NCBI RefSeq assembly: GCF_000515255.1
Contig: NZ_KI911559.1
Location: 2,126,824-2,190,823 of the forward strand
Direction of reading: 5' to 3'
DNA length: 64,000 bases
DNA from: Rhodovibrio salinarum DSM 9154
GTDB lineage: Bacteria; Pseudomonadota; Alphaproteobacteria; Kiloniellales; Rhodovibrionaceae
Shown in pieces: positions 9,529 to 28,332 of the stretch. Below the pieces are notes generated by a model that worked only from the letters and a program-made list of their open reading frames with translations, did not search any database and was not told the DNA's origin. Numbering within the stretch: position 1 is the first letter of the stretch; each line of letters begins with the position of its first letter. The position numbers were made by a program, and so were the translations under genes.

Positions 9529-9605
9529 CGGGGCGTAGCTCAGCCTGGCAGAGCGCCTGCTTTGGGAGCAGGAGGCCGTTGGTTCGAATCCAGCCGCCCC
9601 GACCA
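9529..9605 (+). tRNA. tRNA-Pro (anticodon TGG)
   Basis: A complete 77-base cloverleaf with encoded CCA. Acceptor CGGGGCG pairs with CGCCCCG, the D arm is GCTC...GAGC, the anticodon stem is CCTGC/GCAGG with loop TTTGGGA (anticodon TGG), and the T arm is GTTGG-TTCGAAT-CCAGC. The 3' half (9561-9600) recurs almost exactly at 13206-13245, marking it as the likely attachment site of the islet that follows. Confidence 0.97.
9561..9600 (+). repeat. attL-like repeat inside tRNA-Pro
   Basis: From the anticodon loop to the acceptor stem of tRNA-Pro. It matches 13206-13245 at 39 of 40 positions, the one difference being at 9573 (a versus c). Confidence 0.75.
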
Positions 9606-9679
9606 GACTTTTCAATGGGTTAGGCATCTGTAAAAGGCGCGTTAAACTTCTGGAAGAGTTTAACGTTAAACGCATGATT

Positions 9680-9701
9680 GTGGAACGTGCTCTAATCGTT
9701 C
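9680..9701 (+). repeat. 22-base direct repeat, copy 1
   Basis: Identical to 13302-13323. It starts with GTGGAACGTG and ends in ATCGTTC. Both copies lie shortly after a tRNA-Pro 3' end (74 and 52 bases), so the duplicated context extends past the tRNA fragment in patches. Confidence 0.7.
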
Positions 9702-9712
9702 CGCGATCGTTC
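9698..9712 (+). promoter_or_regulatory. Possible LexA (SOS) box
   Basis: GTTC, seven bases, GTTC: the published alphaproteobacterial LexA consensus spacing. The second copy near 13320 has GTTC-N7-GGTC, one mismatch. SOS control is common in integrated elements, but no clear gene starts just downstream, so it could be chance. Confidence 0.25.
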
Positions 9713-10101
9713 TATCACGTGCAGCACTGGTCGGCCCCGAAACGTGGGTGCCGGTCTCTCCGCGACGTCTTGGTGGGCGATGCGCAGTCCCACCCATACG
9801 CCGGCAGTGAACAGGTCGGCGCCGCCGATCACGGCCAGCAGGGGCGCCAACGACAACCTGCTGATGATCCTGTCCGAGACGGACGTCCGCGCGCTGCTGC
9901 GCTATATTGTCTACTCCACCGTGTTCGCCGCGATGGCGGCTGTGACCTGGTGGTTCGGCGAGCGGGCCATGACCCCGCCGGCGCTGAAACACCGCGAGTG
10001 GTGAAGCCCAAACGGAAGGTAGCCGCTCATAGCAGGATCGCCCCCAACAGCTGCCACCTCCTCCGCCGTCATGGTCGGCTGCCCCTGACCCGGAGCGGCC
10101 G

Positions 10102-10779
10102 TTAACCGTTGCGCTTTCCGCGTTTTTCCTCGGCTTCCTCACGTATTGCCTGAAGTTCCTGATGTACGTCGTCTTTTGTCATTGTTTCAATTTTAACGCG
10201 ACCTTGTGGTGTAATTATTTTTTGTATGGATTTAGAGATTTTTGTGAGTGCATCCGCTATTTCATGTTCCGCCGGTGTACCTAGAGTTACCAACCCCTTA
10301 AAAGCACTAACATCCATTTTCTGCGTCGTAGTTTCCTTCTTTCCATACGTATTCTCGTAATTTACGATGATTGTGAAGGGTTTCAATAGCGTATTGTCTT
10401 CGTCATCAAATAATTCATGGCCTACGTTTAGGAAGGTTTCAATTTGATCGCCAGGTGGGAGGACGGGTATGGGTGGTCGACTAGGTGTTTGACGAAAGCT
10501 CAAAACAAACTTATTGAAATTATCTTCATCCGCATCTCGGCCAATTTCCACATTATATGCCGGGCCATTCCCGACATTACCGATAACAATATTCAGGCAC
10601 GTTTTATGTCTTCGGTCGATGCTTAGATATGCGATCACTTTGGGTTCAGTGCCGGCCTGTCGTAGTCGTCTATTTTCTTCGACAAGCGCCTTCGTAAGAC
10701 GAGTAGAAACTATAGCACTTCCGGCGATCACAACCGTGGCGATCGCCGTTACAATACCCATAATTAACGTCGCATTCAT
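10102..10779 (-). CDS. Membrane-anchored protein of unknown function (islet)
   Basis: A 225-residue protein I do not recognise. One N-terminal membrane span (about 5-25, Ile/Ala/Val-rich) is followed by a short basic helix, then a beta-rich domain with regularly spaced hydrophobic strands (for example VIAYLSIDRR, CLNIVIGNVGNGPAYNVEIG, FTIIVNYENTYGKK). The GNVGNGPAYNV pattern recalls periplasmic or cytosolic beta-sandwich modules found after a single span. The C-terminal helix is highly charged. A good ribosome site (AAGGA) precedes ATG 10779. It is AT-richer than the chromosome and codirectional with the other three islet genes. Confidence 0.7.
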   Translation of the reverse strand: MNATLIMGIVTAIATVVIAGSAIVSTRLTKALVEENRRLRQAGTEPKVIAYLSIDRRHKTCLNIVIGNVGNGPAYNVEIGRDADEDNFNKFVLSFRQTPSRPPIPVLPPGDQIETFLNVGHELFDDEDNTLLKPFTIIVNYENTYGKKETTTQKMDVSAFKGLVTLGTPAEHEIADALTKISKSIQKIITPQGRVKIETMTKDDVHQELQAIREEAEEKRGKRNG

Positions 10780-10872
10780 GGACAGTATTCCTTCGTGTAA
10801 TCGTTCCTATGACCGGTACTTTCAGAGATATTGTAACCCGCCGATGGCCAGCCAGCACCAGTGCCCTCGCTC

Positions 10873-11352
10873 TCAACCATGATTCTTTGCGAGCGTACGG
10901 GCTTTCTCCTCTCGAGCAGCGAGATCCTGGTAGCGCTTGCCTAATCCATCGCTCCGCCGAGCGTTCCACGCCTCAAGGAACCGAAGTTCAAGAGAGTAAG
11001 CTTTCGCCTTACGAAGGATAATCGCGATGCGCCAAGCGTAGTAGGGTGCTGGGTACATGCCAGATTCGTAGTAGTGGGTTACCCCGTCGCGGACGATTTC
11101 GATGTGCTCGGACAGATTGTTGTCAATCGAACGCAAACGTTGACGGAACTCTTCCTCGCCGCCGCTCGGGTCAACCATACCGCGGTGACCCGTTGCCTCG
11201 CCGTACGTCTGGCCCGAAAGCATACCGGACGCAGCCTCGCTAAAGTGCCGCTTCTTGAGCTTTTGGCTCTCGACTGATGTGAGTGCCGGACGGTTTTCGA
11301 TCAGCTCGCAAAGATTGCGGACAGCTTGCAGATCTTGATTCTTAAGTTGCAA
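10873..11352 (-). CDS. Uncharacterised protein, helical (islet)
   Basis: A 159-residue soluble protein, start TTG at 11352 with no strong ribosome site. The C-terminal half reads YPAPYYAWRIAIILRKAKAY followed by a Leu/Glu-rich helix, a pattern seen in TPR-like solo-helix proteins where a Tyr-Pro-Trp-Arg-type motif starts a helical pair. Function unknown. A run of 15 C followed by 8 T lies about 90-115 bases upstream of its start, which could affect its promoter. The weak start codon makes the exact N-terminus uncertain. Confidence 0.65.
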   Translation of the reverse strand: MQLKNQDLQAVRNLCELIENRPALTSVESQKLKKRHFSEAASGMLSGQTYGEATGHRGMVDPSGGEEEFRQRLRSIDNNLSEHIEIVRDGVTHYYESGMYPAPYYAWRIAIILRKAKAYSLELRFLEAWNARRSDGLGKRYQDLAAREEKARTLAKNHG

Positions 11353-11443
11353 AGCGCACTCTGTGTAATCGTTATCTCGTGGTTATGTTCTTCTGCGCGC
11401 GAGCGACAGATTGAAGAAGAGTAACATGCTTAGTCGAGCGTTG

Positions 11444-11466
11444 CCCCCCCCCCCCCCCTTTTTTTT
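11444..11466. repeat. Homopolymer tract C15-T8
   Basis: Fifteen C residues (11444-11458) run directly into eight T residues (11459-11466). It sits between two islet genes and upstream of the minus-strand gene starting at 11352. Tracts of this length slip readily during replication, and also during sequencing. Confidence 0.9.
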
Positions 11467-11470
11467 GTAA

Positions 11471-11490
11471 CCGCTCCTGGCACGAAGCTG
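11471..11490. repeat. Intergenic 20-base repeat, copy 1
   Basis: CCGCTCCTGGCACGAAGCTG, 19 of 20 identical with 11984-12003. A third, weaker copy (CCGCTCGTGGCCCAAA) starts at 13007. All lie between islet genes. They resemble decayed copies of a dispersed intergenic repeat, which is my inference. Confidence 0.55.
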
Positions 11491-11552
11491 ACGTACAGTT
11501 TCTATTGGAACATGGTTTAGTTATACTGACCGGAGGTGCCCGACGTTAAACT

Positions 11553-11915
11553 TTAATCATTCCATAGGATTTTGATAGCAAAAACAATCGTGAAGAAACA
11601 TGCTATCCACAAGACGACGGGACCAGAAGACCCGCGAAATTTAAACCCAAGCGCATCAATTTCAATTGGACCATCCTTCTCTTGCCGGAGAAACACCACA
11701 ACAATAAAGGCACCTATCGCCGCCATCGGCAATCCGACGATTGTAGAAAATTGGCGCACAACAAGTTCAGTCGAGATTGGATCATTTTGTAAGAGGTACT
11801 CAAAGAACCAAGTGAAAATAAATATCAATGCAACAAAAATTGAAAATATCGCGGACACGAAAGCTGCACGTCCGGGACCCGAGCCATCTTTGCCTTTTGG
11901 GTCGCGCTCGTCCAT
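11553..11915 (-). CDS. Small integral membrane protein (islet)
   Basis: A 120-residue protein with a polar N-terminus (MDERDPKGKDGSG) and three predicted spans: about 18-40 (Phe/Ile-rich, ending FFEYLL), 60-78 (GLPMAAIGAFIVVVFL) and 98-116 (VVLWIACFFTIVFAIKI). Between spans 2 and 3 is a short loop, EIDALGFKFRGSSGP. This last motif is common in small membrane proteins of unknown role found near defence or prophage genes. ATG 11915 was chosen because the residues further upstream (to 12017) are coded by the intergenic repeat. I cannot assign a function. Confidence 0.65.
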   Translation of the reverse strand: MDERDPKGKDGSGPGRAAFVSAIFSIFVALIFIFTWFFEYLLQNDPISTELVVRQFSTIVGLPMAAIGAFIVVVFLRQEKDGPIEIDALGFKFRGSSGPVVLWIACFFTIVFAIKILWND

Positions 11916-11983
11916 CGCTCCAAGCAATCCGTGTTCAAAATCCAAAGCTTTAAAATAGCATAGGTCTACGCGTCCTAGAAGGT

Positions 11984-12003
11984 CCGCTCCTGGCCCGAAG
12001 CTG
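11984..12003. repeat. Intergenic 20-base repeat, copy 2
   Basis: CCGCTCCTGGCCCGAAGCTG; pairs with the copy at 11471-11490 (19/20). Confidence 0.55.
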
Positions 12004-12107
12004 CCTGAAGGCCTCACACAACCCGCGTCCGGAACTCCCTCGACACCGGACGGCGACGAAGACGGACCACTCTTCAGGGCCTGACCCAGAGCGGTCGCTG
12101 TGTCTTA

Positions 12108-12132
12108 AACCGGAGGCAGTCAGCCTCCGGTT
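12108..12132 (-). terminator. Hairpin at the 3' end of the 281-residue islet gene
   Basis: Perfect 10-bp arms (AACCGGAGGC and GCCTCCGGTT) around a 5-base loop that contains the stop codon of the minus-strand gene, followed on that strand by TTAAG. The T-tract is short, so termination strength is uncertain. Confidence 0.55.
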
Positions 12133-12965
12133 AGCCGCTTACTGGCCTCATGCCATCTTCGAAAAAGATCATCGAACTTATTGGCGCAATCGATATCGTA
12201 AAATGCAAGCAGCGACTCGTGACATTGGATAAGACTAAAAAGAGCATCATACATGAATAAAACAGCTGGCCACGAAGGGTCGGGTGCCAAAACAAGCTGG
12301 TCGGAAGGAGTTTTGTGAAGGCCGATCATATTCAACGCGTACGCGTCAAAATGTGTTACGGAACTGAATTGCTGATAGATAGGCGCATATAAATCACCAA
12401 GTGTTTGTCGATCCAAGGCGGTACTGGATGGAGGTTGAAGCTTATCTCTCTTGTCTGCCATATCGCTTAAAGGCAGAGAATTCCAGCGTTCCAGATACCC
12501 TTTTTGTTTTTTCGTTGGTATATCCACCATCCAATCTTCTATAGTTACCCCACTGTTTTCGAGTTCTTCGCGTTGGGAAGAGGTGAGGTTTCGAAATATT
12601 TTGTTCGCTTTTGCATAGTAACTACCAATATATTTCACCATTTCGGCGTGATCTGGCTGTCGAGCCAACCAAGACAAGCGAACCGTTTGCTCGTAACGAT
12701 CCCTAATTAACGACATAGCTGGGAGAGATAACGCCCAAGAAGCGGAGAGGCGAGCAGAGACACTCGTTGTTTCCGAAATATATAATAAACGGGTAAATAA
12801 GTGCTGTCGCGGCGTCTCTTCTAATTGAAGATGGCCACCTAGTGCTTCATGAAAATCATCAAAACACTGAGACAGAATCTTTTCTATTTCAGCAACTGGT
12901 GGATGCTGGAGATAGGGTCCCAGGTGGTTCGGCACCTGTGCCCTGCTTTGCGAGCTATCGGCCAT
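12120..12965 (-). CDS. DUF5677-like protein of unknown function (islet)
   Basis: A 281-residue, mostly helical soluble protein. A central helix reads SLIRDRYEQTVRLSWLARQP, followed by a charged region, WMVDIPTKKQKGYLERWNSL and LYAPIYQQFSSVTHFDAYAL. The arrangement (Arg-x-x-Tyr-Glu helix, then a later Ser-Ser-x-x-His-x-Asp/Glu) resembles DUF5677-type proteins, whose biochemical role is not established. The assignment is from pattern memory and is tentative. Start ATG 12965. Codon use is AT-richer than neighbours outside the islet. Its stop codon lies inside a terminator-like hairpin. Confidence 0.7.
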   Translation of the reverse strand: MADSSQSRAQVPNHLGPYLQHPPVAEIEKILSQCFDDFHEALGGHLQLEETPRQHLFTRLLYISETTSVSARLSASWALSLPAMSLIRDRYEQTVRLSWLARQPDHAEMVKYIGSYYAKANKIFRNLTSSQREELENSGVTIEDWMVDIPTKKQKGYLERWNSLPLSDMADKRDKLQPPSSTALDRQTLGDLYAPIYQQFSSVTHFDAYALNMIGLHKTPSDQLVLAPDPSWPAVLFMYDALFSLIQCHESLLAFYDIDCANKFDDLFRRWHEASKRLTGG

Positions 12966-13205
12966 GGCGACAACGATAACACCTCTAATTCAGGTATGTT
13001 AGATGACCGCTCGTGGCCCAAACCGGGCGCGGCAACGAGCGAGCGCTGGGTCCGTAGTGCCCCCGAAAGCTGTCTACAGGGATCGTTCAGTCTGGGTTGA
13101 ACCACTAGACGTCCGACCGATCGCATCCAACTTTGCCCCATATCAGGGGGTAAATTGGACGGATTGCGGTTGGATAACTGGCGGAAAACTGCGACAGGAG
13201 ACTGA

Positions 13206-13245
13206 TTTGGGAGCAGGCGGCCGTTGGTTCGAATCCAGCCGCCCC
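13206..13245 (+). repeat. attR-like tRNA-Pro 3' fragment
   Basis: A copy of the tRNA-Pro sequence from anticodon loop to acceptor strand (39/40), followed by ACCA. One base of the acceptor strand (the G at 9601) is missing, and there is no 5' half, so it is not a functional tRNA. This is the expected scar of a tRNA-targeted insertion. Confidence 0.75.
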
Positions 13246-13249
13246 ACCA

Positions 13250-13738
13250 ATAAAATCAGATGGTTAGCTAGAGTCTCGCGTGGCGCGTCCAGCTCTCGGC
13301 CGTGGAACGTGCTCTAATCGTTCTGCCGTCGGTCTGTCCCAAGCTTGCGGTTGGTTTGCACGGGCGCGCGGGATTTATGTCCATTGTCCGACCGTAGGTG
13401 GGCCAGCCGCTGCGCGATTACGATCACGATCAGGTCACGCTAACGGTCGAGCCTGCAGACAATGCGAAGGGTGGCCTTGGCGATTGGGACGTCCCTATCA
13501 TCACCTTCTCGCGCGTATACGCGGTCAACGGTAACGTGAAAAGATAGTCGGGCGACGTGGATGAGAAGCGCCGTGTACGGGGCGCTCGCTAAATCGTCTA
13601 GCGTATTCTACTATCCGGGGAATGCGGGCTCCAAGTACCCGTCAGGCGGGCAATCTTCCGTTCTCGGCTGGATCTCCGGTGCCCGCTAACGTGCCTGCCT
13701 GGATTTCTTGACCGAGACCAGAGGGGAAAGCCGGACCT
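13250..13738. other. Region between the islet and the LysE gene, with a gene remnant
   Basis: It contains the second 22-base direct repeat (13302-13323). On the plus strand, 13398-13547 is an open frame of about 50 codons with balanced, protein-like composition (for example TLTVEPADNAKGG and DWDVPIITFSR) ending in TAG. It lacks a good start and is probably the C-terminal remnant of a lost gene. Nothing else is evident before the LysE ribosome site. Confidence 0.4.
13302..13323 (+). repeat. 22-base direct repeat, copy 2
   Basis: Identical to 9680-9701; similarity continues weakly for about 10 further bases. It lies outside the right tRNA fragment, 52 bases after the ACCA. Confidence 0.7.
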
Positions 13739-14344
13739 ATGCAGATCGAGCATCTGATCGCGTTCAACATCACCTTGCTTCTGGCGATTGCGAGCCCGGG
13801 CCCTGCCTTGCTGATCGCCATGCAAACAAGTTTGAGCAGTGGGCGGCGGGCCGGCGTCGCGATCGGGGTCGGCCTCGGCCTGATGGCATCGATCTGGACC
13901 GGTCTGGCGCTGGTCGGTCTGAATGCGCTGTTCGAGTTGTTGCCCTGGTTTTATGGCGTGGCGACTTACATCGGGGCCGGGTATCTCGTCTACATCGCCT
14001 GGCATATGTGGCGGGACGCCAAGGAGCCGATCAAGGCCGATGTCAAACTGGACCGCCATGCCTTCCGGCAGGGCTTCCTGGTCAACCTGTTCAATCCGAA
14101 GTCGATGCTGTTTGCCGCCGGCGTCCTGATCGCGATCTTTCCTCCGGAGATGACGATGGCGGAAAACGCGGTCGTGGTGCTCAACCACCTCGTCATCGAA
14201 TGGATCTTCTACACCGTGCTGGCCATCGTCATGAACAGTCAGGCCGTCAAGCGCCAGTACATGAAGGCCAAGGCGGTGATCGACCGTGTCGCGGGCATGG
14301 TATTGTGCGCGCTGGCGATCCGTCTGGTGCTCAGCAGTCATTGA
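13739..14344 (+). CDS. LysE/RhtB family amino-acid exporter
   Basis: A 201-residue inner-membrane protein with about six hydrophobic spans. The family signature is present: SPGPALLIAMQTSLSSGRRAG after span 1, then GAGYLVYIAWHMWRD, and FLVNLFNPKSMLF at mid-protein. The family exports amino acids or homoserine lactone-like compounds; the substrate here is unknown. A GAGGGGAAAG ribosome site precedes ATG 13739. It stands alone, just right of the islet remnant region. Confidence 0.9.
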   Translation: MQIEHLIAFNITLLLAIASPGPALLIAMQTSLSSGRRAGVAIGVGLGLMASIWTGLALVGLNALFELLPWFYGVATYIGAGYLVYIAWHMWRDAKEPIKADVKLDRHAFRQGFLVNLFNPKSMLFAAGVLIAIFPPEMTMAENAVVVLNHLVIEWIFYTVLAIVMNSQAVKRQYMKAKAVIDRVAGMVLCALAIRLVLSSH

Positions 14345-14622
14345 CCTTGTGGTCTCCCCCGGCTTTCACGCCGACGGCTGTCTTGACCGGGCTTGAGCGC
14401 GGGGGTAGGGGGAAGAGAGCAATGCGGTGGGTCGCTTGCAACGCGCGGTCCGGGACCAGCCCGGTTGGCGGAGGGGCGCCCATCGACGGGAGCGTCTGCG
14501 TGCGCCGTTTCGGCCGGCACGAGGCTGCGGAAGCGGGCGCCGCGCGCGGGGTCCCAGGCAGCCCGGGCTTGTCCGATGGGCACGGCACGACGCGTTGACG
14601 CAAGGACGGCAAACGAGACGTC

Positions 14623-14928
14623 ATGCAAGCGCGCATCTATCAGCTACCCAAGACCGCCATGCAGTCCGGCAAGGCCAACACCAACCGCTGGGTTCTGGAG
14701 TTCGAGCCCGAACACAAGCGCGAGGTGGAACCGCTGATGGGCTGGACCGCGTCGAGCGAGACCCAGACCCAGGTGCGCATGTGGTTCGCCTCCCAGGAGG
14801 AGGCGATCGCGTTCTGCGAGCGCGAAGGCTACATGTATTCGGTCGAGGAGCCGCGCCGGCGCGAGGTCAAGCCCAAGGCCTATGCCGACAACTTCAAATA
14901 CGGCCGCCTGGGCGTCTGGACGCACTAG
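14623..14928 (+). CDS. NADH dehydrogenase (complex I) accessory subunit, NDUFS4-like
   Basis: A 101-residue protein of the ETC complex I / NDUFS4 (18-kDa, AQDQ) family. Typical motifs are the opening ARIYQLPKTAMQSG, NRWVLEFEP, MGWTASSETQTQVRMWF (middle part), ATS-type FASQEEAIAFCEREGY, and the C-terminal YADNFKYGRLGVWTH. It is a supernumerary subunit on the matrix/cytoplasmic arm, found in alphaproteobacteria and mitochondria, and usually encoded away from the nuo operon, as here. The 278 bases before it hold no recognisable gene. Confidence 0.93.
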   Translation: MQARIYQLPKTAMQSGKANTNRWVLEFEPEHKREVEPLMGWTASSETQTQVRMWFASQEEAIAFCEREGYMYSVEEPRRREVKPKAYADNFKYGRLGVWTH

Positions 14929-14955: not shown

Positions 14956-15032
14956 GCGCCCGTAGCTCAACCGGATAGAGCACGCGCCTTCTAAGCGCGT
15001 GGTTGCAGGTTCAAGTCCTGCCGGGCGCACCA
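14956..15032 (+). tRNA. tRNA-Arg (anticodon TCT)
   Basis: A 77-base cloverleaf with encoded CCA. Acceptor GCGCCCG/CGGGCGC, anticodon stem CGCGC/GCGCG with loop CTTCTAA (anticodon TCT), T arm GCAGG-TTCAAGT-CCTGC. Five T residues and a GC-rich hairpin follow within 20 bases. Confidence 0.97.
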
Positions 15033-24799: not shown

Positions 24800-25609
24800 A
24801 TGAGCGACACCCACGGCGTTACCGCTGACGAGAAGAACCGCGAAGCCGCCCGGCGCATGCCGGCCCCGGAGAATGACGCGATCATCGAGATGCAGGACGT
24901 GAATAAGTGGTTCGGCCAGTTCCACGTCCTTAAGGACATCAACCTGGCGGTCAACCGCAAGGAACGGATCGTCGTCTGCGGCCCATCCGGCTCGGGGAAG
25001 TCGACCCTGATCCGCTGCGTCAACCGGCTGGAAGAGCACCAGGCCGGCAAGATCATCGTCGACGGAGTCGAGCTTACCAACGACATCAAGAAGATCGAGC
25101 AGATCCGCCGCGAGGTCGGCATGGTGTTTCAGCACTTCAACCTGTTTCCGCATCTGAGCGTGTTGGAGAATCTCACCCTCGGTCCGATCTGGGTGAAGAA
25201 GGAGCCGAAGGCCGACGCCGAGGCGACCGCGATGCGGTATCTGGAGCGGGTGAAGATTCCGGAGCAGGCGCACAAATACCCGGGCCAACTCTCCGGCGGC
25301 CAGCAGCAGCGTGTCGCGATCGCGCGCTCCCTGTGCATGAACCCGAAGGTCATGCTGTTCGACGAGCCGACCAGTGCACTCGATCCCGAGATGATCAAGG
25401 AAGTGCTCGACGTCATGATCGAACTGGCGGAGACCGGTATGACCATGGTCGTGGTTACCCACGAGATGGGCTTCGCGCGTACGGTCGCCGACCGCGTGAT
25501 CTTCATGGACGAGGGCGAGGTGATCGAGCAGAACCCGCCCGAGGAGTTCTTCCACAACCCGCAATCGGAGCGGACGAAGTCCTTCCTGAGCCAGATTCTG
25601 AAGCACTAG
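24800..25609 (+). CDS. aapP: General L-amino-acid ABC transporter ATP-binding protein AapP
   Basis: A 269-residue ATPase. Walker [11 protein letters not shown]-loop [10 protein letters not shown], signature [13 protein letters not shown], Walker [15 protein letters not shown] and switch VTHEMGFA are all intact, and the match to polar amino-acid ATPases of the GlnQ/AapP type is strong. It energises AapQM. ATG 24800 begins a short polar tail before [13 protein letters not shown]; the frame is open to 24617 in the end of aapM, which is a shadow. Confidence 0.96.
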
Positions 25610-26133
25610 GACGGGTGCGATAAGCGGGCGCGTGCCGATGCCCACTTTCGATAGGGCCTTCGAAGCCGATTAGCTGACTAAGTAAGTCTGCCCTGCGAGC
25701 AAAGCGGACGGTCGAGCTTGCTGGCAAGGTCGTGGTGTCTGGGCGCGGCCTCTTGTCCTGTTACCTCGATGCCTAGACGCTTTAAGTGCTGAGAACATCC
25801 GGTGATCGACGCCGGCAAGCTGAATTCGTCTGTTCCCCATTGGTGTATCGCGAGCGATGCGCGTGACCCGCGAAGAGGCTCCTATTGCTCGCGCTAAACG
25901 ATAAATAAATTGTACCGAGAAGAAATAAATTTTATCACATGATAAGTGTATTATGCCGGATGTTCAGCTGTAGTATAGCCCTATGTATATTTTCGACATG
26001 AATTATTTGGCAATTTATGTTTTTTTTACTCCTAAGGTGTGAAAATCAAATTTGGAAATAGGGGGTCGAACAGCTTTTTTGCCTGATCCTGGAAGTGAAA
26101 TATGAATATGTAGGTTGGTGGAAACTAAACGTT
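25610..26133. other. Intergenic region with AT-rich promoter zone before the chemoreceptor
   Basis: The first 280 bases have normal GC and no gene. From about 25890 the DNA becomes strikingly AT-rich up to the chemoreceptor start. A perfect palindrome, TTATCA-CA-TGATAA, lies at 25932-25945. The AT-rich block is the probable promoter and leader of the chemoreceptor gene, and its composition differs from the rest of the window outside the islet. Confidence 0.45.
25932..25945. promoter_or_regulatory. Palindromic candidate operator
   Basis: TTATCA, two bases, TGATAA in the AT-rich upstream zone of the chemoreceptor gene. No cognate regulator is nearby, so the role is a guess. Confidence 0.3.
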
Positions 26134-28332
26134 ATGAAGAAGTTTGGTGCACGAATGTCTGTCCTTAACAAGTTGAAGGTGAGTACACGTCTCATTGGCG
26201 GGTTCACGATGCTTACCGTTCTTGCGATGGGGCTTGGCGCTGTGGGCTGGTTGTCGGTGCGGAGTATCGATACCGAGCTGAGCGGAATTTCGGAGGTCGC
26301 GGCCCCGGCGATCGAAACGACCGACGATCTGATCGCCGACATGTGGCAAAGCACCAAAGTCGCCCACGAAGTGGCCGGTGCCGAGACGCTCGATGAACTG
26401 ACGAGTCTCGAGCAGGATCTGACACGGCTCAGGAAGGGGTATGCCGCGTCCGAGCGCGAACTCGACGCGGTCGTTGATGATCCGGCGATGCAGCAGCCGC
26501 TCGAGGCCGCGCGCCCCCTTAAGAGCGACTATGACGGCCTGTTGGGTGATTTGGTTGCCGAACAGCGAACTTTGCTCAGTGAGCGTTCGGCCGCGCGCGA
26601 GAACGTGCGGGCGTTCGAGAAGGTCGACGCCAGTTTGAAAGCGCAGCTCACCGGGTTTGCGGACCGTAACGAGTCGCAGATGGCGGAAGCCAAGCAACGG
26701 GGTAATGAACTCGCGCGATCTGGCGCGAGTGGCCGTGCGGTCAACGGGGTCCTCGGCGATCTGTTCGATAAAGACTATCCGGTCGTAGAGGCGTCTCTCA
26801 AGCTTCGGGCCCTCGTGGGTGAGATGGGCGCCGTTGCCCGATCGTATCTGGCGGAAACGAAGCTTGCCGATCTGAATCCGATCGAAGCGCGTTTTTTAGA
26901 GCTAAACGAGCAGATAGATCGCTATCTCGCAGTCATGACCACGCATGTTGAGAGCCCGGGAGGCAAGCGGGATCTGCAGAGCCTGAAGTCTGGCTTTCTG
27001 GCGTGGCGTGATCAGATCATCGGGCAGTCAGGGCTGTTCCAGGAGCAGGCCGCCTTTCTCCAGGCGCGCGCCAATCTTAAGGCAGGTCTTGCGCGCGCGC
27101 AGACGGCCGCGGACGAGACGATCGCTTCGCTCGACAAGGTGGCCATTGCGGCGGATGCCTTCAGCAAGGAGTCCGATGCCGATGCCGCAGCCGCGGTAAG
27201 CCAGGCGAGCATGATCATCCTGGTTCTCATCGCCGCTGCCACCGTCGTGGCCGGTGGGCTCATCCTGATCGTCGTGTCCACGGTGACAAATCCGATCAAG
27301 GCGATCACCGACACCATGCGCAAGCTGGCGGATGGCGACAGCAGTGTGACGGTGCCTGGCGCCGGCCGCTCCGACGAGATCGGCGAAATGGCGGGTGCGG
27401 TACAGGTGTTCAAGGACAACGCCCTGGAGAAGGAGCGCCTGGAAGCCGAGCAAGAGGAAGCCGAGAAGCGGGCCGAGGAAGAGAAGCGTCAGGCGATGCA
27501 GGATCTCGCCAACCGGTTCGAGAGCGAGGTTGGCAGCATCGTCGAGATGGTCAGCTCTGCGGCGACCGAGTTGCAGGCAACCTCTCAGCAGCTTTCGGCG
27601 GCGGTTGAGGAGACTGAGGCGCAGACCAGCGCAGCTGCCACCGGCGCGGACCAAGCGTCGGGAAGTGTGCAAACGGTTGCTTCGGCCGCAGAAGAGCTGT
27701 CCGCAGCCATTCAAGAGGTTAACGGTCAGGTCTCCAATGCGGCCGGCAAGCTGCAATCGACCGCTCAGGGCGCCCGCAATGCCGAAACCAAGATGGACGA
27801 GCTCCTGAAATCGGTCGGTCAGATCGACGAGGTGGTCGAGCAGATCAGTGACGTGGCCGAGCAGACCAATCTGCTTGCCCTGAATGCGACGATCGAGGCC
27901 GCCCGCGCCGGCGAGGCTGGCAAAGGCTTCGCCGTGGTGGCCCAGGAGGTCAAATCCCTGGCCAATCAGACCCGGCAGATGACCGACAACATCGCTAGCC
28001 AGCTTGCGACGGTGAAGCAGGCCTCTCAATCGGCCGTCGATGGCACGCGCACCATCGTGGGCGAAGTCGAGACGATCAACGAGACGACCGGCACCATCGC
28101 GGCCTCGGTCGAGGAGCAGACGGCGACCACCTCGGAGATCAGCCGGAGCGCTCAGGAAGCGGCTAAGGGCACAGATGCGGTGTCCGGCAACCTGGGCAGC
28201 GTCAAGGAAGCCGCCAGCCATACCGCCCAGGCGTCAGGCAGCGTCAGCCAGGCCGCGGATGACTTGGCTCAGCAGGCCGAGGGGCTGAAATCTGCGGTTC
28301 AGACCTTCCTGTCCGAGGTCCGCGCCGCCTAG
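26134..28332 (+). CDS. Methyl-accepting chemotaxis protein
   Basis: A 732-residue chemoreceptor: TM1 at about 19-41, a roughly 320-residue helical periplasmic ligand domain, TM2 near 352-375 ([20 protein letters not shown]), a HAMP domain ([18 protein letters not shown]), then the signalling domain with the invariant hairpin tip [18 protein letters not shown]-type sequence (here [35 protein letters not shown]). It signals through CheW/CheA. No CheR-tethering pentapeptide is seen at the C-terminus (ends FLSEVRAA). The start is uncertain: GTG 26095, ATG 26134 and ATG 26155 are all in frame. The ligand is unknown; the size suggests a two-bundle (HBM-like) sensor. Confidence 0.93.

Follow-up and report, generated by a model that had tools for sequence, protein, structure and literature searches.

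A probable integrase-less remnant islet at the tRNA-Pro(TGG) gene of Rhodovibrio salinarum DSM 9154

The 64,000-nucleotide stretch of Rhodovibrio salinarum DSM 9154 analysed here (the window, bases 2126824-2190823 of the complete 4,176,524-bp genome; positions are those of the window unless marked as genome positions) contains an islet directly behind an intact tRNA-Pro(TGG) gene. This islet is most likely the remnant of a site-specific insertion at the tRNA gene, without an integrase of its own and similar to a cis-mobilizable element (CIME), with a probable second unit behind it. It holds four minus-strand open reading frames (ORFs), P1 to P4, as an earlier note on this DNA had described. 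The islet is an ordinary, apparently decayed one of a known kind, with no detectable mover and no recognisable joint function.

A displaced 3' half of tRNA-Pro

The earlier note had reported that 40 bp of the tRNA-Pro 3' half recur downstream with one mismatch (9561-9600 and 13206-13245). This repeat is borne out and can be extended to a 44-bp direct repeat with two mismatches (9557-9600 and 13202-13245; 42 of 44 bases identical), the copies lying approximately 3.6 kb apart. The alignment continues through the CCA end with one base deleted (13202-13249). No other 44-mer in the window agrees with it at more than 26 of 44 bases, and the best other match of tRNA-Pro(TGG) in the whole genome is tRNA-Pro(CGG), at 92% identity. 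The repeat copy begins at the anticodon stem/loop, with the anticodon at tRNA position 35 according to ARAGORN.

An empty site in relatives

Insertion at tRNA-Pro, as proposed in the earlier note, is supported by this repeat together with an empty site in relatives. The nearest named relative in our searches is Rhodovibrio sodomensis (the methyltransferase adjoining the tRNA gene is 77% identical), in which a 100% identical tRNA-Pro gene is followed by 85 bp, then by a small gene (window position 14623) and then by tRNA-Arg. In the window, the ancestral flank resumes only at approximately 14549. By this comparison of loci, the islet has what is generally asked of a tRNA-targeted genomic island, namely an empty site in relatives. 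We take the small gene to be ETC/NDUFA4-like; no NCBIfam model matched its protein.

We searched 57 relatives for tRNA-Pro and the small gene, and 45 of them have both on one contig among the matches listed. The remaining 12, in which the genes are on separate contigs or not among the matches listed, were left out of the gap count. The gap between the two genes is at most 231 bp in 34 of the 45 relatives (among the matches listed). Twenty-one loci were studied more closely: eight that already had both genes and 13 further regions, several of which were picked for a long gap. The gap is shorter than 100 bp in 10 of these 21 loci, and none of the 21 contains a same-strand match of more than 22 bp to the tRNA 3' half, tRNA-Arg aside.

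The lack of such matches also bears on a different origin of the repeat, as the leftover of a tandem tRNA-Pro duplication without any integration. A degraded second gene could leave a 3' half-copy, and one genome of the same family (G001, among the 12 relatives left out) has two 99% identical tRNA-Pro copies, albeit on separate contigs and not placeable. However, no 5' half was found before 13202, the interval is filled by foreign DNA, and no tandem tRNA-Pro pair, which the earlier note had held would speak against integration, was seen at the site. We give a duplication without integration almost no credence.

Extent of the foreign DNA and a probable second unit

The empty site of R. sodomensis sets the left end of the islet at the tRNA gene and the right end at about 14549: from there up to the small gene, roughly 75 bp (14549-14620) can be aligned with the gap between the two genes in R. 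sodomensis, at a score reached by 6 of 1000 shuffles. The repeat-bounded stretch of approximately 3.7 kb described earlier is real, but foreign DNA goes past 13249. With ancestral sequence not returning before about 14549, the foreign stretch is longer than first described and takes in a LysE-type exporter gene. On this alignment, it extends from 9606 to approximately 14548, roughly 5 kb.

The GC content of the 3.6-kb islet stretch is 0.504, whereas stretches of this length average 0.648 and none outside the islet falls below 0.592. The interval is therefore AT-richer as the earlier note had it, except for the first ~500 bp inside (9606-10100), which have a GC content of 0.624.

A 37-bp repeat (86% identity) starts 75 and 53 bp past the two tRNA 3' ends, and its first 22 bp are identical in the two copies. 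Allowing up to three mismatches, this 22-mer is found at two places only in the 4.18-Mb genome, both behind tRNA 3' ends. Because the same 22-bp sequence follows both 3' ends, the segment from 13250 onwards (unit B) is probably the remnant of an earlier element at the same site. This suggests two accreted elements, an older one at 13250-14548 and, inserted ahead of it, a younger one whose end is similar. A 20-bp form of the motif (up to two mismatches) occurs in two of 385 sampled genomes of the class, this one and G367, and a scan of viral contigs for exact copies of the 22-mer found none. There is little chance that the core repeat and the motif together are the hallmark of an undescribed family of islets without integrases, which would be moved in trans into tRNA-Pro, would carry in short runs of orphan cargo genes and would have stacked twice here.

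Integrases and recombinases

No integrase or transfer family was found among the islet ORFs submitted to family libraries, in keeping with the earlier note. The genome has four matches to the tyrosine recombinase family PF00589, the nearest approximately 79 kb from the islet. Two of the proteins are XerD-like and XerC-like, both just under the equivalog cut-offs. The third is a Xer/integron-like protein of 302 aa (genome ~3991811-3992719) which falls below all cut-offs; it has an odd, perhaps truncated, C-terminus and presumably resembles the recombinases found beside IS91-type transposons. The fourth (705 aa) starts 84 bp after tRNA-Gln and is followed by large genes that, by eye, we take to be a BREX-type system; this whole region is at genome 2218450-2229000, outside the window. 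No candidate tRNA-Pro integrase is evident in the genome, the genome-wide search having covered tyrosine (PF00589) and not serine recombinases.

The earlier note had raised the possibility of a trans-mobilised satellite, which would still be excising by means of a helper's integrase. Genes flanked by high-identity att-like repeats, with no integrase inside, are what such an element would look like. Against it stand the lack of an evident tRNA-Pro integrase in the genome and of any second islet: the 20-bp motif (up to two mismatches) occurs in one of 384 other sampled genomes, in stretches without tRNAs, and no two of the five islet proteins were found together in another genome's locus (204 loci examined). 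A satellite is thus a very unlikely explanation.

Probable order of events

The remnant islet probably arose as follows. An incoming element whose attP held a copy of the tRNA 3' half would have recombined in the anticodon loop. The element's own 3' half would then have rebuilt the tRNA gene (attL, 9557-9605), and the old 3' half would have been displaced to 13202 (attR). The DNA from 13250 to approximately 14548, with the LysE-type exporter gene, would most likely have remained from an earlier element at the same site. Integrase and transfer genes may have been lost, or may always have been supplied in trans. The present state would be CIME-like, an att-flanked cargo without a recombinase, whose movement would depend on the arrival of a matching integrase.

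Several observations weigh against this history. No tRNA fragment was detected at the right end of unit B (~14549; best match 23 of 49), so that it is one motif which points to the second unit. The two stretches that separate a tRNA 3' end from its copy of the motif do not resemble each other (an equal score is reached by 1432 of 3000 shuffles). The motif is also similar to the end of a palindromic repeat dispersed in G367, where nine near-identical intergenic copies with GCTCTAATCGTTC lie in stretches without tRNAs, and it may therefore be a repeat rather than belong to an att site. The tRNA-Pro gene and the small gene are not always adjacent, 11 of the 45 relatives having 0.6-8.2 kb of other DNA between them (among the matches listed). 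ARAGORN predicts a 91-nt tRNA-Pro(CGG) approximately 2.4 kb from the 302-aa recombinase; this place is not among the genome matches listed for the window's tRNA-Pro, and it is doubtful that this tRNA is real. Finally, we found no relative that has these genes together with an integrase.

An alternative is one single insertion of approximately 4.9 kb (9606 to ~14548), with the fragment at 13202 and the motif being an internal duplication or a piece that the element already carried. The absence of a tRNA fragment at ~14549, the empty site without both foreign segments and the duplication of the sub-terminal motif as well would all fit. Such a single element is nevertheless rather unlikely, since GC content differs between P1-P4 (0.44-0.55) and 13250-14344 (0.59-0.60) and the fragment lies near this change, although 12966-13205 is already at 0.56.

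A common insertion hotspot was also considered for the site and rejected: all 11 long-gap relatives are among the 21 closely studied loci, and none of them has a same-strand tRNA 3'-half match of more than 22 bp, tRNA-Arg aside. The ORFs of four long-gap loci, judged by eye only, were ordinary-looking genes with no integrase noticed.

Cargo genes and other features

The features of the islet and its surroundings are listed in Table 1.

Table 1. Positions of the tRNA-Pro islet, its putative attachment (att) sites, its genes and its flanks.
Feature	Position	Strand	Basis or remark
tRNA-Pro (anticodon TGG), intact, putative integration target	9529..9605	+	ARAGORN; Rfam tRNA; 100% identity to R. 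sodomensis
attL-like core, tRNA anticodon stem/loop to 3' end	9557..9605	+	direct repeat, ARAGORN anticodon; attL role putative
sub-terminal repeat copy 1	9680..9716	+	first 22 bp identical to copy 2
P1, 225 aa, one N-terminal membrane span, phrog_11802	10102..10779	-	PHROGs 9.5e-18; hydropathy
P2, 159 aa	10873..11352	-	matches C-terminal ~145 residues of three plasmid proteins, two annotated as HIRAN-domain
P3, up to 154 aa, three membrane spans	11553..12017	-	hydropathy; start uncertain, GTG 12017 or ATG 11915
P4, 281 aa, DUF5677	12120..12965	-	Pfam 37.5 bits against a cut-off of 27.1; 3.2e-9
displaced tRNA-Pro 3' fragment, attR-like core	13202..13249	+	2 mismatches in 44 plus 1-base deletion
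second foreign segment (unit B, probable), ragged right end	13250..14548		absent from R. sodomensis site
sub-terminal repeat copy 2	13302..13338	+	first 22 bp identical to copy 1
LysE-type exporter gene, 201 aa	13739..14344	+	PF01810 9e-35; no match in R. sodomensis locus
ancestral flank	14549..14622		aligns to the 85 bp after tRNA-Pro in R. sodomensis
conserved small gene, 101 aa, after tRNA-Pro in relatives	14623..14928	+	relatives' loci
tRNA-Arg (TCT), conserved neighbour	14956..15032	+	ARAGORN, relatives' loci

The membrane-anchored, three-span and DUF5677-like proteins of the earlier note correspond to P1, P3 and P4, respectively. P1 has three weak phage matches (1e-3), including one (24% identity, 1e-3) to a Z-region ORF of a P2-like phage that is named putative lysogenic conversion protein. 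The search for P2 covered plasmids and viral contigs, that for P3 plasmids only. Five plasmid proteins match P2, the best three with E-values of 1e-14 to 3e-12; the Pfam HIRAN scores of these plasmid relatives are below the cut-off, and no HIRAN remnant was found upstream of P2 (best E-value 0.54). P3 matches a Rhizobium plasmid protein (48% identity across 67 residues). P1 and P4 have no plasmid match, and no relatives of P1, P4 or P2 were found in viral contigs. The LysE-type protein has relatives in other genomes, at best 55% identical (G048), while a 49-aa ORF (13398-13547) has no match in plasmids, phages or PHROGs. DUF5677 reportedly comes up in a paper on Salmonella case severity.

The earlier note had proposed to look for the genes as a unit at other tRNA genes; no recurring gene set was found. 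P1 and P4 each have matches in three of 336 other sampled genomes, with no genome common to both; of the three for P4, two are weak (3.7e-4 and 9.2e-4). Since their homologues are in different genomes, the genes apparently do not travel together. In their neighbourhoods, judged by eye, each of the three P1 homologues is single among unrelated genes, and so is the best P4 homologue, which is a fragment that matches residues 85-170 and 233-278. One P1 homologue has a DNA methyltransferase gene and genes for transposition nearby (by eye), and G367 also has a fragmentary P4 homologue. A role in defence, also suggested earlier, is unsupported: among five ORFs searched against the anti-phage proteins of PADLOC, the sole match was a weak one of P4 to PDC-S52 (0.0018, 16.1 bits). 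Single-sequence structure predictions were too poor to use (mean pLDDT, the predicted local distance difference test score, 42.3 for P4 and 37.3 for P1). Promoter-like sites (5, against 3.5 in shuffles) and terminator-like sites (6, against 5.7) are not in excess. Nothing here shows that the four cargo genes act jointly.

Approximately 90 bp upstream of the P2 start (minus strand) lies a run of 15 C followed by 8 T (11444-11466), the sole C run of at least 9 in the window. This homopolymer tract could be a slippage-prone site or a weak point of the assembly. A 20-bp direct repeat (95% identity; 11471-11490 and 11984-12003) flanks P3 if translation starts at ATG 11915, and its second copy lies inside P3 if the start is GTG 12017; a third copy, with three mismatches, is at 13007-13026. 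Integron cassettes were considered for these repeats and dropped, as exact copies are limited to two in this genome and 189 other sampled genomes have none. Elsewhere in the window, GC content has a further dip, to 0.53, at 25000-27000.

Comparison with known systems

The islet can be compared with three kinds of described element. Islander (PMC4383910) counts 3919 islands at tRNA or tmRNA genes, of which 3760 have 3' fragments and 2083 are anticodon-centred. Our islet is like these islands in its intact tRNA gene, its displaced 3' fragment in the same orientation, its anticodon-centred site and the empty site in relatives. Unlike them, it has no tyrosine integrase inside, and Islander requires an integrase gene.

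CIMEs and the accretion of tandem islands are reviewed in PMC5704250. The islet shares with them att-like flanks, a lack of integration and transfer genes (among the islet ORFs submitted) and a probable decayed neighbour element. It differs in that no functional partner, either an integrative and conjugative element or an integrative mobilizable element, is seen at the islet, and in that its putative att sites are known from core repeats.

In Dehalococcoides, 15 islands at ssrA without an integration module have been described (PMC3146451). These, too, are cargo islets that lie in tandem behind an RNA gene and have its 3' repeat as their boundary. There, however, a serine recombinase, a tmRNA gene and many tandem repeats are involved, whereas here the gene is a tRNA and there are one or two units. 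The R. salinarum islet shows in clean form a tRNA-bounded islet that lacks an integrase, of a kind that finders which demand an integrase, such as Islander, would miss.

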